From: Bacillus sp. V5-8f
GTDB lineage: Bacteria; Bacillota; Bacilli; Bacillales; DSM-1321
Direction of reading: 5' to 3'
NCBI RefSeq assembly: GCF_002863565.1
Contig: NZ_PGUW01000001.1
Span: 124,001-188,000, forward strand
DNA: 64,000 nucleotides
A program made the translations under genes and the position numbers. Below are positions 46,489-51,407 of the stretch, in pieces. The first letter of the stretch is position 1. Every line of letters begins with the position of its first letter. The notes below the pieces were generated by a model. The model saw only the letters and a program-made list of their open reading frames with translations. It searched no databases and was not told the DNA's origin.

Positions 46489-47043
46489 TTAACACATGCT
46501 AGGATTTGGAAGAGGTCCGGGTGGCGTATCATGTACATAGGGAGGTGCCGGGTTCAGGAATGGAGGTTCGCCGTAAGGTTGTGGTTGACGAACGTATTGG
46601 AACACGCCGCACCCATCCATGGACGGACCAGATGCCCAACGTCCCATACTGCTTTCGTCACCCCTGGACAGGTTGAAGAACGTGTAAGAGAATTCCCGCC
46701 TTTCTCTTTCTTGAGGAAAGGTTCCTGGAGCCACTTTCCCTTCTTTTGCTTCAATTTCTGCTATTGCTGCCATCTCTTGCTCCTTCATAGGGCTGCCATC
46801 CAGAAGGCGGGCTATTAACGTAGCGACAATTTCAACATGGGAAATTTCTTCTGTTCCGGTATCAAGCAATAAATCGCGGTATTTTTGTTCCGCGCGGCTA
46901 TTCCACCCTTGAAATAGGTATTGCATCATAACCGTCATTTCGCCAAATTTTCCACCTAATATTTCCTGCAGCTTTCTTGCAAACGCAGGATCAGGGCGCA
47001 TCGGTTTAGCTTGATATTGCAATTCCTTGATGTGAAAAAACAT
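46489..47043 (-). CDS. Manganese catalase (CotJC-like) with a large internal deletion
   Basis: This 184-residue protein begins MFFHIKELQYQAKPMRPDPA and has the first half of a di-manganese catalase bundle, with ligands in KFGEMTVMMQYLFQ and TGTEEISHVEIVATLIARLL. After LLDGSPM it jumps in frame to EQEMAAIAEIEAKEGKVAPG and the family's C-terminal tail (YTFFNLSRGDESSMGRWASGPS). Full-length proteins are about 270-290 residues. The missing 90-100 residues hold the third and fourth helices with the second Glu/His ligand set, so catalase activity is unlikely. It may have been retained as a structural spore or coat protein. The start is the family ATG; GGAAAG is weakly placed. Confidence 0.85.
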   Translation of the reverse strand: MFFHIKELQYQAKPMRPDPAFARKLQEILGGKFGEMTVMMQYLFQGWNSRAEQKYRDLLLDTGTEEISHVEIVATLIARLLDGSPMKEQEMAAIAEIEAKEGKVAPGTFPQERERREFSYTFFNLSRGDESSMGRWASGPSMDGCGVFQYVRQPQPYGEPPFLNPAPPYVHDTPPGPLPNPSMC

Positions 47044-47128
47044 ATTCAACACTTCTTTCCTTGAAACTGTGAATTTCACATGAACACATACTCATGTTAT
47101 GAGGAAAGTATGGTTATTGCTTATTAAA

Positions 47129-47184: not shown

Positions 47185-48642
47185 TTAAAATATTCGATTT
47201 TGGCGGCTGCGTTTTTCCTTGAGCCAATTTTTTAGTGAGATGATTCCTAGAATGGCTGAAATGATAATGCCGGAGAGCGCTACGAACAAGGAGATGAGTT
47301 CAAAGAAGCTGTAGTCTGGGATTTTTGCCCAGCCGATTTTACCTTTCCAATCTTCAATCACGAGGTTCATGCCGTAAATTCCGGAAATCACAGTGTAGAT
47401 GGTGAGGATTTGGAGCAAATAATTATTCCTGTTTGTAGCCATTTGATCCTGGTTCTGATACAGGCTGGAGAGCGTTTTTTTTACGTCTTCATATAGCCGG
47501 TCCAGATCAAACACAGCTTTGACGATATGGAATATTTCTTTTCCCGACGTCGTACTATTCACTTCGGGGAAATGATACTTCGCAGAAAACTCCGTAATCA
47601 TCACAATCAGCAATTCCGTCTGATCCTGGTCCTTTTCTATATCAATCTTCGAATGTTCATGCGTCAGCTTCAGCAGAACGATTTTATAGTAAAAACACAA
47701 CAGAAGGCCGTAATAGTGCTGACCGAACATCTGGCTAACAAGCAGCTCTTCTAATTTATCCTTCGCACTTGTCACACAGAAAAAACTATATTCGCTCGCG
47801 ACATAATATGTCTCATCAGCCCAGCGGTCATATACATTTTTTCTGTAGTACCTTTCTATATAATCAGGGTTGGTGGCCCCGACAAACGGCTTTCCGCCAC
47901 GGTCATACCCATTTAATTGGCCCGCCCGGTGTAAATCGGCTTTAGAGACCTTGCTGCCTTCTGGCAAGGAGATATAACCGATCACATACATGCGCTCATC
48001 AATGAAAAACGGCAGGCTGCCAAAATAAGAAGAATCCGCTTTATGTTGGTCGATAAAATCCTTCATGACCGGCGTTAATTCATTGAAGATAAAATCCTTT
48101 ACCTTGCTATAGGAAGCATTTCCACTAGCAATGGTGGTGTTTTCCTCGTCTTCTACAATTGGCTCCATTACTCTGAAAGTGTCAGCAAAATACAAGGCAT
48201 CGGTATAACTTAGATCCTCGGGCAACGATACTCTTATATTCATAATGCCAATGTGGAACGGGCATAAGAAAATATCAAATGAATGAATCGTAAAGTCCGT
48301 ATGTAAACTAGGAGACCGAAAAGTAGACGTTAGTTCCACACTTTTTGTAAAACGCCGAATTCCCTGCTTGTCCTCCATGTTGGAGGGAAATAAAATCGGT
48401 TCTATATTCGGAAGGAAGTACTTTTCAAGCATTCGGTGGTTAACCTTGACGCCACCATAGAACTTATCCTGCTGATCCATATTCTTCAGTTGAAAAAAAG
48501 TGAAATGGTCCTTTACTAAACGATCCACAAATTTCTTTGTTTTGTTTTCCTCCAACATAAAAGGAAAAATAAACTGGAGCGTTGACCGTTTAGCCCTAAG
48601 CCCTTCCGTCATTTGATGGTTCTTTTCTTGAAAATCTCCCAT
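47185..48642 (-). CDS. CorA-like membrane protein with large soluble N-domain
   Basis: This 485-residue protein has about 410 residues of soluble domain, then two C-terminal membrane helices. The first ends in the ion-selectivity motif GIYGMNL, characteristic of CorA/ZntB divalent-cation channels; the second is FELISLFVALSGIIISAILGII. The N-domain is longer and diverged from classical CorA (about 310-350 residues). A pentameric Mg2+ or other divalent channel is the likely structure. I use the ATG with GGAGGAATTAA. The gene ends at a REP. Confidence 0.75.
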   Translation of the reverse strand: MGDFQEKNHQMTEGLRAKRSTLQFIFPFMLEENKTKKFVDRLVKDHFTFFQLKNMDQQDKFYGGVKVNHRMLEKYFLPNIEPILFPSNMEDKQGIRRFTKSVELTSTFRSPSLHTDFTIHSFDIFLCPFHIGIMNIRVSLPEDLSYTDALYFADTFRVMEPIVEDEENTTIASGNASYSKVKDFIFNELTPVMKDFIDQHKADSSYFGSLPFFIDERMYVIGYISLPEGSKVSKADLHRAGQLNGYDRGGKPFVGATNPDYIERYYRKNVYDRWADETYYVASEYSFFCVTSAKDKLEELLVSQMFGQHYYGLLLCFYYKIVLLKLTHEHSKIDIEKDQDQTELLIVMITEFSAKYHFPEVNSTTSGKEIFHIVKAVFDLDRLYEDVKKTLSSLYQNQDQMATNRNNYLLQILTIYTVISGIYGMNLVIEDWKGKIGWAKIPDYSFFELISLFVALSGIIISAILGIISLKNWLKEKRSRQNRIF

Positions 48643-49114
48643 ATTTAATTCCTCCGCGGCATGGGGATTGCCCCCGGTTAGGTCATCTTTACAATGGTAC
48701 CCATTCGAAAGATGGTTCAAACGGCGACATACTGGGCTTTTCTGAGTAAAATGATATGGTTATTGATAGTAAATAAGATGCTATCAAAGGCTAGTATTTA
48801 TTCTAAACATAAAAAATCCCGCAAGCATTCCGCCTGCGGGCTACGGCGGATGCATCCAAAAATGCTCCCGCCCAAATTGGGTACTAGAACTGAGGGTGTT
48901 CCCGAAGAGCAAGAAAAATTCGTTACTCTCCGACAAATTTGACTCATTACACTCCAAAAGTTATTAGGGAAGAGGAATACCCCTGCCAAATAACCGTTAC
49001 TAATATTTAATCATGAAGACCATTCTGTACAAAACCCGGTAAAATGCCCTATTTCCAGATTACGAAGATTTACACACTAATTTCCCTACCATAAGGTAGG
49101 CTATTTACAAAAAA
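48643..49114. other. Intergenic region
   Basis: It contains a terminator-like hairpin (48818-48840) and, next to it, coding-like minus-strand sequence without a start site, possibly the remnant of a lost gene. Nothing else was supported. Confidence 0.35.
48818..48840 (-). terminator. Terminator-like hairpin
   Basis: CCCGCAGGCGGAATGCTTGCGGG on the minus strand, then ATTTTTTATG. No intact gene lies upstream of it. Confidence 0.6.
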
Positions 49115-49131
49115 TATAACTATAGGAATAT
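49115..49131 (+). promoter_or_regulatory. RNPP-locus box 1 (TATAACTATAGGAATAT)
   Basis: This 17-bp sequence recurs at 50063, 50341 (minus) and 50457. Here it points toward the small gene 49292-49435. It contains a -10-like TATAAC(T) and a CTATAG centre. Confidence 0.6.
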
Positions 49132-49291
49132 TTTTAAATCCTTCCATTTAAATCATGGTATTGTGTAAAATAAACCGGAAAAATTTTTAATATTTTTTTA
49201 CAAAGTGGTTTTACTTTTTACATGGTTGGGTATTTACATTCATATAGAATCAGAAATTAACTTACAAGATTACTACAAAGGGGAGACAGCA

Positions 49292-49435
49292 TTGAGGCTA
49301 GAGAGATTTAAGCTCGATCGCCAGCTTGCCAAGAGTGATGGCAAAGCCTGGTTGGGAGCGAAAGCATCAGGAAATAATTCAAGGAAACAAATGAAGGATT
49401 TTTTGGATAAAATTAAGAAAAATAGATCACATTAA
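49292..49435 (+). CDS. Small basic protein near the quorum-sensing cassette
   Basis: This 47-residue protein (MRLERFKLDRQLAKSDGKAW...) is strongly basic and hydrophilic. The TTG start has AAAGGGGAG seven bases upstream; the frame is open further 5' but without another site. It follows RNPP-locus box 1 by about 160 bases and is closed by a terminator, so it may belong to the same regulon. No family was recognised. Confidence 0.55.
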   Translation: MRLERFKLDRQLAKSDGKAWLGAKASGNNSRKQMKDFLDKIKKNRSH

Positions 49436-49439
49436 AAGA

Positions 49440-49466
49440 CTCATATCGGGCTGTTGCTGATTTGGG
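49440..49466 (+). terminator. Intrinsic terminator
   Basis: CTCATATCGGG...CTGATTTGGG imperfect stem followed by TTTTTTT, after gene 49292-49435. Confidence 0.65.
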
Positions 49467-49588
49467 TTTTTTTGCGTTACGCACTTTCTTGGCTGGGTTA
49501 TTTTCAACATTAATATTTTCAGCACGATCAAGGTTTACAAAGGTAAATTCAAAAGAGGACCCTGCACCTTTTCTAATGTCCTTCTGTT

Positions 49589-49930
49589 TCATTTCGAAGT
49601 GATAGTTAAAGAACTGTACTCTGCTCTATTTACAAGTTTATATGCTGTGTTAGGGATGCATTTATTGATTCCAAGAATGCTTAGAAAATGTTTCATTTTT
49701 TCCATCGAGGCGTCCTTATATTCCTCCGTGATCTCGAGTTCTTTGACAAAAGCAATCTTTTCCCTGCATGGGCTATCGCTAAGCGTTGATGTAACCGATT
49801 TTTTATCCTCACAAGTGTATACGACCGCCTCTCCTACCGGGCCACTGGCAGAAACAAAAGAAAAGGAAAACACAATCGCACATTCTCCCTCATAAAAAGA
49901 AGGTCGGATTTTCATATTCACTTCAGCCAT
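49589..49930 (-). CDS. Hypothetical protein in the RNPP locus
   Basis: This 113-residue protein has no signal peptide (MAEVNMKIRPSFYEGECAIV...). The first half looks beta-rich and the second half contains a helix (KDASMEKMKHFLSILGINKC). It resembles no family known to me. Its upstream region contains RNPP-locus box 2, so it is a candidate target of the neighbouring regulator. The ATG has GAGGTG or AAGGG upstream. Confidence 0.55.
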   Translation of the reverse strand: MAEVNMKIRPSFYEGECAIVFSFSFVSASGPVGEAVVYTCEDKKSVTSTLSDSPCREKIAFVKELEITEEYKDASMEKMKHFLSILGINKCIPNTAYKLVNRAEYSSLTITSK

Positions 49931-50062
49931 TCCCTTACACCTCTCTCCATTTTATTATTTTCACTATACCAGAAATAAAACGGGCTGTTATCCCTATTTA
50001 CAAGCTAAAAAGCTAGGGAAATCGGAAATTAAGCAGGAAATCTTCTATCTTCCATAGTAAAA

Positions 50063-50079
50063 TATAATTATAGGAATAT
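50063..50079. promoter_or_regulatory. RNPP-locus box 2 (TATAATTATAGGAATAT)
   Basis: It differs from box 1 by one base. It lies between the pheromone-gene terminator and the start of 49589-49930, about 135 bases upstream of that gene. Confidence 0.6.
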
Positions 50080-50100
50080 CGTGAATATTGTCATAAAAAA

Positions 50101-50129
50101 AGATGTACCACCGGACTGGAAGTACATCT
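50101..50129 (-). terminator. Intrinsic terminator of the pheromone gene
   Basis: AGATGTACTTCC...GGTGGTACATCT on the minus strand followed by TTTTTTTATG, 35 bases after the peptide stop codon. Confidence 0.9.
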
Positions 50130-50164
50130 ACTGTGACGGAGCTATTTTGTTAAGAAACTAGTGC

Positions 50165-50293
50165 TTAGAACTGAGTTGGTAATTCCTTAGTGCCGACAGT
50201 ACTGAACTGTGTTGGTAGTTCTTTGGTTCCAATTAGTGTAAATCCAGCAACTAGAACAACGACCGCCAGTAATCCAGACAATTTCTTTTTCAT
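50165..50293 (-). CDS. PapR-like signalling pre-peptide with duplicated pheromone sequence
   Basis: This 42-residue pre-peptide begins MKKKLSGLLAVVVLVAGFTL, a Sec signal sequence, and ends in two copies of the same nonapeptide: GTKELPTQF, then a three-residue linker, then GTKELPTQF as the extreme C-terminus. In the PlcR/PapR system a C-terminal peptide of the form LPFEF is exported, trimmed and re-imported. LPTQF keeps the Leu-Pro-x-x-aromatic pattern. The gene has a perfect AAAAGGAGG site, its own terminator and a divergent RNPP regulator 200 bases away. A Phr/PapR role is inference from pattern and position, but a strong one. Confidence 0.85.
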   Translation of the reverse strand: MKKKLSGLLAVVVLVAGFTLIGTKELPTQFSTVGTKELPTQF

Positions 50294-50340
50294 GGGTAAA
50301 TCCTCCTTTTTTGTACATAAAATATTGAATTTAATTAAAA

Positions 50341-50358
50341 TATCATTCTATAGTTATA
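50341..50358 (-). promoter_or_regulatory. RNPP-locus box 3 (TATAACTATAGAATGATA)
   Basis: This is box 1 with a small change on its 3' side, oriented toward the pheromone gene whose ATG is 48 bases downstream. Confidence 0.55.
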
Positions 50359-50456
50359 TTTAACCATAATTTACCGGAACATTAATTTCCCACCTCGTGC
50401 GTTTAAACTCGTTTACCGGTAGATGAAACATGATTTCCTTATGTTTTTTTCAAAAT

Positions 50457-50473
50457 TATAACTTTAGGAATAT
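50457..50473 (+). promoter_or_regulatory. RNPP-locus box 4 (TATAACTTTAGGAATAT)
   Basis: One base differs from box 1. It ends 6 bases before the ribosome binding site of the regulator gene, which fits autoregulation. Confidence 0.6.
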
Positions 50474-50492
50474 TTTTTAAGGGGAAATGTTT

Positions 50493-51407
50493 ATGGACTT
50501 TTCCATAATCGGACAAAAAATTAAAGAGCTGCGCAAGCAAATCGGCCTTTCTCAGGGAGAACTGGCTAAAGGAATTTGCACCCAGGCACAGATCAGTAAG
50601 ATTGAAAAAGGTGATGTTTATCCTTATGCATCCACTCTTTATCTCATATCGCAACGTCTAGGTGTAGATGTGAACTATTTCTTTGATATTGGGATGACAC
50701 CAAGACTGGATTATGTCCAAGAGGTTGAGACTCAATTAAAAACCGCCCGCAAGAATATGAATTACCTGGAAATAGAGCAAATAGTTAAATCTGAAGAAAA
50801 CAATCCCCTCTTTAAGCAAAATAAACGAAATTACCAGCTATTGCTCTGGCACAAAGGGATTTATCAATATATGGTTTATAAAATGACCGGGCAAGCGATC
50901 CAAACCCTAGAAGGAGCGATTGCCCTGACCCAGCCAACCGAAAAGATTCATTCGGAACGAGAAATCGAAATCCTCCTTAGTATTGGTTCCATATATTTTG
51001 AGGAAAAAGACTATGGCAAAGCTATTGAAACATACAGTTCCTGCAATAATTATTTATCGTTACTTCCCTATCTATCCGATAGTACGGTAAAAACACATAT
51101 CTACTATAATATGGCCCGTACACTTACAAGGGTAAAAAGATATGCAGAATCCGTCCTGCGCTGTGAGGAAGCAATCAAATGGTGCATAGCTAAGAGCAGC
51201 CTCTTTTTACTGGGGGAGCTCCATTACCATATCGGTTATAATTTTGAGCTTTTAGGGGATTTCCACTCTGCCAAGGAGAATATGCTAAAAGCAAGGCTAA
51301 TCTTTGAGTTACAGAAGGATGACCGTTTTATCACGTTTATTAATAAAAAGCTGGAAAAGTGGACAACCGAAAACAAACTCTCTACTGACGAAACCATCCC
51401 TTCATAA
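50493..51407 (+). CDS. RNPP-family (PlcR-like) peptide-responsive transcription factor
   Basis: This 304-residue protein has an N-terminal HTH (about 5-60: IGQKIKELRKQIGLSQGELAKG, then QAQISKIEKGDVYPY) and, from about residue 70, five or six helical TPR repeats (YGKAIETYSSCNNY, YAESVLRCEEAIKWC). This is the layout of PlcR, NprR and PrgX, which bind a re-imported peptide in the TPR groove. The usual PlcR length is about 285 residues. I take the second ATG: it has AAGGGG eight bases upstream, while the first would leave only two. It is divergent from the pre-peptide gene. Confidence 0.9.
   Translation: MDFSIIGQKIKELRKQIGLSQGELAKGICTQAQISKIEKGDVYPYASTLYLISQRLGVDVNYFFDIGMTPRLDYVQEVETQLKTARKNMNYLEIEQIVKSEENNPLFKQNKRNYQLLLWHKGIYQYMVYKMTGQAIQTLEGAIALTQPTEKIHSEREIEILLSIGSIYFEEKDYGKAIETYSSCNNYLSLLPYLSDSTVKTHIYYNMARTLTRVKRYAESVLRCEEAIKWCIAKSSLFLLGELHYHIGYNFELLGDFHSAKENMLKARLIFELQKDDRFITFINKKLEKWTTENKLSTDETIPS

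Follow-up and report, generated by a model that had tools for sequence, protein, structure and literature searches.

The window analyzed here is a stretch of 64,000 nucleotides (nt) from the genome of Bacillus sp. V5-8f (contig NZ_PGUW01000001.1, positions 124,001 to 188,000 of the forward strand). Between its positions 48811 and 51407, it harbors a gene encoding a transcription regulator of the RNPP (PlcR-like) kind, a divergently oriented gene for a small propeptide carrying its pheromone sequence twice, and three copies of a 16-bp box. Regulator and propeptide had been recognized in an original prediction; beyond these parts, the system was found to hold one more protein gene, designated p113, and probably a small RNA.

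The regulator gene (50493..51407, plus strand) encodes a receptor/transcription regulator of 304 amino acids (aa) featuring a helix-turn-helix (HTH) domain and tetratricopeptide repeat (TPR)-type helices, as deduced from Pfam, from an alignment with PlcR (2qfc) and from an AlphaFold2 model. In a profile scan, Pfam matches to RNPP_C (3e-16), HTH_3 (7e-12) and TPR were obtained, and PlcR (2qfc) was the best solved relative by sequence (E 4.8e-16, residues 5-273). The AlphaFold2 model, computed from an input of 36 sequences, is all-helical with a mean predicted local distance difference test score of 89. The predicted divergent arrangement of an HTH-TPR regulator and a secreted-type pre-peptide was thus confirmed. 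A receptor size of about 250-500 aa, a peptide-binding-type TPR domain preceded by an N-terminal HTH, and an adjacent small gene with secretion-type signal and C-terminal pheromone are among the features by which RNPP/RRNPPA systems are recognized, and these are present. A second in-frame ATG two codons upstream (50487) would yield a 306-aa version; the proteins of relatives align from MDF, i.e., with the 304-aa start.

Within its own 4.43-Mb genome, the regulator is the sole match at E 0.001. Matches of at least 60% identity were observed in 32 of 36 genomes of the genus (own genome included), the nearest named receptors occurring in Peribacillus glennii (88%) and P. cavernae (77%). At E 1e-60, 97 of 249 genomes of the order contain a match to the receptor family. 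To collect relatives, 84,980 species genomes were scanned with six short peptide patterns; this search, which is not exhaustive, yielded 59 loci with a related receptor.

The propeptide gene (50165..50293, minus strand) encodes 42 aa, MKKKLSGLLAVVVLVAGFTLIGTKELPTQFSTVGTKELPTQF, with a secretion-type N terminus, as judged from the KK start and a hydrophobic stretch, and two pheromone units GTKELPTQF (copy 1 at 50204..50230 and copy 2 at 50168..50194, both on the minus strand). The exact duplication holds at the protein level over the complete 9-mer; five of 27 bases differ between the copies, all of them synonymously, so that a sequencing echo and a recent duplication are both ruled out as the origin of the repeat. 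As had also been predicted, the gene possesses its own ribosome binding site, AAGGAGGA (50301..50308, minus strand; read from the sequence), and its own terminator, a hairpin of nine pairs plus two inner ones followed by T7 (50094..50129, minus strand). Folding of 73 nt around the latter gave a minimum free energy of -16.9 compared with -10.1 +/- 2.4 in shuffles (z -2.8). A simple terminator scan does not list this element, probably because its stem is interrupted.

A directional 16-bp box and its candidate targets

In relatives, an intergenic block shared just before the receptor gene contains a directional 16-bp box, TATAAYTNTAGGMATA, with an imperfect-palindrome layout. Its pattern was met at most 80 nt from the receptor start at 51 of 60 loci, and 26 distinct copies were compiled into a matrix, by whose score the box precedes the receptor at 53 of 60 loci. 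In the window, box 1 (TATAACTTTAGGAATA; 50457..50472, plus strand) is separated from the downstream regulator start by 20 nt and is reversed towards the propeptide gene, box 2 (TATAATTATAGGAATA; 50063..50078, plus strand) is located 131 nt upstream of p113, and box 3 (TATAACTATAGGAATA; 49115..49130, plus strand) lies 120 bp from the -10 element of the candidate RNA; the region singled out originally began exactly at the first base of box 3, 49115. Exact matches to the box in the 4.43-Mb genome number three, all in the locus within 1.4 kb, versus none in a reversed control. Genus-wide, 85 exact matches compare with six in the reversed control; they occur in 32 of 36 genomes, namely the same 32 that encode a receptor of at least 60% identity, and in none of the other four. 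At family level, the exact box was found in 35 of 43 genomes.

The box is related to the PlcR box, TATGnAnnnnTnCATA, and yet departs from it at positions 4, 6 and 11, of which positions 4 and 6 were fixed by the search pattern. The PlcR box itself was dismissed as the conserved operator, with one match only in the window, overlapping the regulator start codon. This exact B. cereus-type match, TATGGACTTTTCCATA, at 50492-50507 (0.11 expected by chance in the window) is probably a coincidence of the MDFS codons, since the corresponding regions of relatives do not seem to retain the PlcR-box palindrome.

The p113 gene (49589..49930, minus strand) encodes a conserved 113-aa partner protein present at 46 of 59 relatives' loci. 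A box precedes it by 125-135 nt in 47 of 47 cases (the window and these 46 loci), even where other neighbours differ, and moves together with relocated p113 (L040, L057); in L026, L046 and L048, the box is weak. In p113 promoters, e.g., that of L045 (sites at -407 and -394 relative to the start of the receptor gene), a second site was noticed 13 bp from box 2. In many cases, the two together form an extended palindrome, ATATTCCTATAAGAATATT, which hints at cooperativity in binding. Among the 249 genomes of the order, p113 occurs in 20, all of which hold the regulator at most 3.6 kb away. No convincing Pfam, NCBIfam or PHROG family was assigned to p113: a Pfam scan of 39 of the 47 members gave scattered weak matches, the best being an IF140 TPR domain (six members, E 0.0002) and, in one member, DUF5717 (E 0.0015), while PDB profiles returned none below E 0.4 and PHROGs one match at E 0.04. 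Between box 3 and p113, a small open reading frame (ORF; 49205-49435, plus strand) was seen for which no family was found; its basic C-terminal half, including a KQMK stretch, is conserved in L002, L006 and L143.

Further box-bearing genes were encountered away from the receptor locus. Genus-wide, 21 such sites were listed, of which 13 were read: eleven, all in the P. simplex/muralis group, precede a peptide-importer-type ATPase gene, and two (L151, L152) do not. The importer ATPase of L105, the sole protein scanned, matches Pfam ABC_tran and oligo_HPY above cut-off, and NCBIfam dipeptide/OppD models at E <=1e-92 but below their cut-offs. Several matches were not counted as targets, i.e., the one-mismatch site of L093 inside two overlapping open frames, that of L152 inside an 824-aa ORF, and those of L147 and L151, for which no clear target gene was apparent. 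In L146 (2061-2076) and L149 (1657-1672), a top-scoring box stands before a gene for an aromatic-acid/H+ symport-type transporter of the major facilitator superfamily (MFS), followed by NAD synthase (L146 scanned, L149 assigned by eye); these are possible clade-specific targets.

The candidate small RNA (48811..49002, minus strand; 5' end placed from its -10 element) comprises two covarying hairpins, the second of which is a terminator. Among 20 pairs, 10 show changes on both sides in 17 sequences. The RNA core is present at 18 of 59 relatives' loci, and the RNA model gives one match each in 34 of 36 genus genomes; no significant match was obtained in the 31 loci searched out of 41 others, L004 reaching E 0.08. 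In L143 and L144, which lack receptor orthologue, propeptide and p113 at the locus, the RNA is kept with a weaker box at offset 121. No Rfam family was assigned at threshold, a weak match to rli42 scoring 19.8 bits versus a cut-off of 80. Pairing of the RNA with the 5' ends of the propeptide, p113, regulator and CorA-like mRNAs was considered and dropped as unsupported across species: in the window, 2 of 200 simple shuffles paired as low with the propeptide mRNA, and among 12 of the 18 available species only the window and L021 stood out (2 of 100 each), the other ten not.

Downstream of the RNA lies a CorA-like gene (47185-48720, minus strand), encoding a long protein with a weak C-terminal CorA-like match (E 0.0016) and syntenic with the RNA. 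The RNA could be an attenuating leader of this gene rather than a free small RNA, which we regard as a possibility of some substance and still the less probable one. Both are on the same strand, the terminator lies 90 nt before the listed start of the CorA-like gene, and this gene follows the RNA core in the window and in all 18 relatives. On the other hand, the terminator is strong, a separate promoter possibly exists past it in the P. simplex group (by eye), and no RNA family was matched at the Rfam threshold. A manganese catalase-like protein of only 196 aa is encoded at 46489-47079 (minus strand); it matches profiles of 268-284 positions in two stretches and looks internally shortened.

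Distance between box and promoter

Spacing was measured between the box, oriented with respect to the gene, and an extended -10 element of the pattern TGnTW..DT, searched at offsets 30-150, and promoter sets were thinned at 60% spacer identity. The propeptide gene of the window features its extended -10 (TGG TTAAAT; 50358..50363, minus strand) 109 bp from box 1, p113 (TGG TATAGT; 49963..49968, minus strand) 110 bp from box 2, and the RNA (TGA TTAAAT; 49005..49010, minus strand) 120 bp from box 3. This arrangement recurs with near-constant offsets, namely 109 (13), 110 (36) and 111 (1) for 50 of 50 propeptide promoters (27 of 27 after thinning), 109 (6), 110 (38) and 111 (1) for 45 of 47 p113 promoters (thinned, 21 of 23), and 120 for 19 of 19 RNA promoters (thinned, 8 of 8). 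Elsewhere over 116 positions, the -10 pattern was met 23, 8 and 3 times, respectively. Ten divergent p113 promoters show a mere 36% similarity in the spacer, which means that its length is kept and not its sequence. The two distances, 110 and 120 bp, are one turn of DNA apart.

Box 1 is placed differently with respect to the regulator gene: in 52 of 53 instances, 16-23 nt separate its end from the receptor start, and it contains a -10-like TATAAC/TATAAT just before this start. For this reason, the receptor may limit its own transcription. Such a repressor-like place, together with the existence of RNPP receptors of both signs (PMC11343458), would also be expected if the receptor were a repressor relieved by the peptide instead of a peptide-dependent activator. 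We consider this unlikely, given that boxes about 110-120 bp upstream of the -10 elements of propeptide gene, p113 and RNA, at constant phase, suit activation better than blocking.

Pheromone copies among related propeptides

A short divergent secretion-type ORF with a unit of the [E/DP]LPxx[F/Y/H/L] type was detected at 50 of the 59 relatives' loci, from which it follows that the window propeptide is not a chance ORF. Including the window, 27 propeptides carry one copy of the unit, 17 carry two, two carry three, one carries four and four carry five, i.e., 24 of 51 are multi-copy; copy numbers range from 1 to 5. On the receptor tree, 11 label changes were counted for six labels (minimum 5), indicating repeated change. 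The six-residue core is identical within each precursor and differs between species. L002, the nearest relative, carries GTKELPTQF and GTYELPTQF as its 9-mers, so that identity is confined to this core. The Leu-Pro-x-x-Phe pattern stressed in the original prediction applies in part: Leu-Pro is kept in relatives, but many pheromones end in Y, H or L, or carry an additional K/TKA, rather than ending in F. In comparison with PapR7, which is ADLPFEF (PMC6568020), the window pheromone keeps L-P and the final F, with F5 and E6 replaced by T and Q. No groove-linked receptor substitution was discerned in the six closest receptors (L045-L050), across which the last pheromone residue shifts from Y to H.

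No readable propeptide was found in nine of the 59 relatives, being out of frame with a start in L020 and absent from the vicinity in L042, L044, L053-L056, L058 and L059; some receptors consequently either lack a propeptide or receive a signal from elsewhere. The receptors of the latter eight loci are possible listeners to foreign signals, or their propeptides are located elsewhere.

Pairwise comparison of the copies in 17 distinct multi-copy genes invariably showed the same six core residues, with 1-7 of 18 bases differing. Comparing first and last copies in 11 lineages over the three codons after LP, 25 base changes and no amino-acid change were counted; the chance of all 25 being silent if random is near 10^-16, a rough figure because the copy-finding motif restricts the last residue to F/Y/H/L/M and copies without ELP/PLP remain uncounted. 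Between species, both copies change in parallel (TQF, TLF, PML, SVF, SVY, GLY). The simplest reading is that selection acts on each pheromone copy, because a fresh duplication or gene conversion would have left the DNA alike, too. The converse proposal, that the C-terminal copy is the sole signal and the inner one a passive duplication relic freed by no protease, appears improbable. In its favor, single-copy propeptides (27 of 51) are evidently sufficient, and the single-copy L006 features unrelated sequence at the position of copy 1 and may exemplify a lost copy. It is opposed by the silent-only core divergence in 17 of 17 genes, by the concerted pairs TQF/TQF, TLF/TLF, PML/PML and GLY/GLY, and by duplicated Phr pheromones being produced and active, as reported for the Rap family, not for this receptor family (PMC11343458).

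Proposed circuit and comparison with known systems

Taken together, the locus is likely to represent an RNPP-type (PlcR-like) quorum-sensing circuit in which a peptide signal reinforces its own production. From the genes, the repeats with their silent-only divergence, the confinement of the box to the locus, its spacing and the conservation of these features, we infer the following course. The 42-aa propeptide would be exported via its signal sequence and cut extracellularly into two identical LPTQF-ended peptides; a mature form KELPTQF would have the same length as PapR7. After re-import by an oligopeptide permease, the peptide is predicted to bind the TPR groove of the 304-aa receptor, which, once loaded, would bind the directional box and activate extended -10 promoters from a fixed distance. 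Activation from about 110 bp would concern the propeptide gene (positive feedback) and p113, and activation from 120 bp, one helical turn more, the small RNA. Two identical copies per precursor would provide more signal per translation.

Several observations weigh against this circuit or limit its reach. The box matrix was trained on a pattern already fixing most positions, and with one mismatch allowed, the own genome yields four box matches versus six in the control, so that weaker targets are not recognizable. A simple score puts the best -10 where expected in 37 of 50 propeptide, 46 of 47 p113 and 16 of 19 RNA promoters, and in the window propeptide promoter a rival -10 (TGA TATTTT) at offset 130 outscores the site at offset 109. 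Many of the relatives' loci are closely related to one another. The opp promoters lack an extended -10 at 110 or 120, and in two genomes of a sister genus, the box upstream of an MFS transporter gene is inverted and lies 167 and 187 nt, respectively, from the ATG; orientation and spacing are therefore not universal. The weak GNAT-like match of p113, the nine relatives without readable propeptide and the single copy of L006 likewise belong here.

A further rival, in which a different conserved regulator occupies the box and the PlcR-like protein is just its neighbour, is very improbable. In its favor, the two cassette-less genomes retain a weaker box ahead of the RNA. Against it, the box agrees with the 16-bp PlcR box in length and palindromic arrangement, every exact copy in the own genome is at the regulator locus, and box and receptor co-occur in the genus (32 of 32 versus 0 of 4), a correlation that is partly trivial with the box adjoining the gene.

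On a wider scale, a distinct RNPP subfamily may be envisaged for Peribacillus, Cytobacillus, Rossellomorea and kin, in which a new directional operator would mediate helically phased activation from 110/120 bp. Its core output would be the orphan p113 and not secreted enzymes; a new small RNA would be added in Peribacillus, and one clade would further have an importer, which may carry the system's own signal. Copy number would be tuned by evolution between 1 and 5, with each copy kept identical by selection. For this combined reading, we see the chances as evenly balanced. As a single receptor family naturally spans precursors with one to five identical signals, the role of copy number becomes testable, options being more signal, lower receptor affinity or different thresholds. 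Moreover, an RNPP regulator with a compact box set and a strict distance rule would be available for study, with an uncharacterized protein and an RNA as quorum-controlled outputs.

Among known systems, PlcR-PapR of the B. cereus group is closest. Both systems share an HTH and TPR receptor, the one of PlcR being the nearest solved relative by sequence, and a small secreted propeptide with C-terminal LPxxF. In the B. cereus group, papR is located downstream of plcR, whereas the gene order in the window is divergent. A 16-bp imperfect-palindrome operator, a propeptide gene under receptor control and an oligopeptide permease in the loop are further traits of PlcR-PapR (PMC2464732) that are predicted here as well. 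Differences are the one to five pheromone copies of the window family and its box, which has A4, C/T6 and G11, while PlcR needs G4 and A6; in the PlcR box, A4 leaves 1% of activity, C6 2% and T6 4% (Table 1, PMC2464732). Spacing is near-constant at 110/120 bp here, in contrast to PlcR boxes 'at various distances' (PMC2464732), and few box-bearing targets compare with 45 genes for PlcR. Of the PlcR peptide-contact residues K89, Q237 and Y275 (PMC6568020), the first two could be compared, Y275 being outside the receptor alignment; neither is conserved, M89 and E242 occupying the aligned places. The cassette is thus PlcR/PapR-like, as originally described, in its RNPP receptor nearest to PlcR, but operator and contact residues show that it is not PlcR proper.

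The doubled pheromone had been thought new, a view that was not supported. In AimR, NprR, PlcR and Rap propeptides, the same mature peptide is reported to be present as many as six times (Felipe-Ruiz 2022, PMC9765709), and several identical mature peptides per Rap-Phr propeptide have been described (Even-Tov 2016, PMC5199041), a feature these RRNPPA propeptides share with the window. In the former survey, repeats were sought in atypically large propeptides only; the doubled propeptides of 42 and 37 aa observed here might not attract attention by their length. Rap105-Phr105 and Rap3T-Phr3T likewise employ tandem pheromones in one precursor, identical in the former and unlike in the latter, whose production and activity have been reported (PMC11343458); these are phage Rap systems acting via protein targets, whereas the window receptor is chromosomal and has a DNA-binding domain.

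RRNPP_detector treats PlcR as one cluster (PMC10075063), and PlcR and TprA are counted among five-TPR receptors (PMC12700828). In the text available, 'simplex' and 'firmus' were not found in PMC9765709 and PMC5199041, nor 'simplex', 'firmus' and 'Rossellomorea' in the main text of PMC10075063, nor 'Peribacillus' or 'Cytobacillus' in PMC12700828. In open-licence PMC text without supplements, no paper contained the cores ELPTQF, ELPSVY, ELPGLY, ELPPVY or ELPSVH, and one, unrelated, contained ELPTIF. Among the matches listed for open-licence text, no further relevant title combined PlcR/RRNPP with Peribacillus, simplex, firmus or Cytobacillus, and no publication on box, p113 or RNA was found. In comparison with the systems described, repeated pheromones are already known and are not the new part; what appears new is the 16-bp box, its putative targets at fixed distance including p113 and the RNA, and the suggested link to the importer in the P. 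simplex group.

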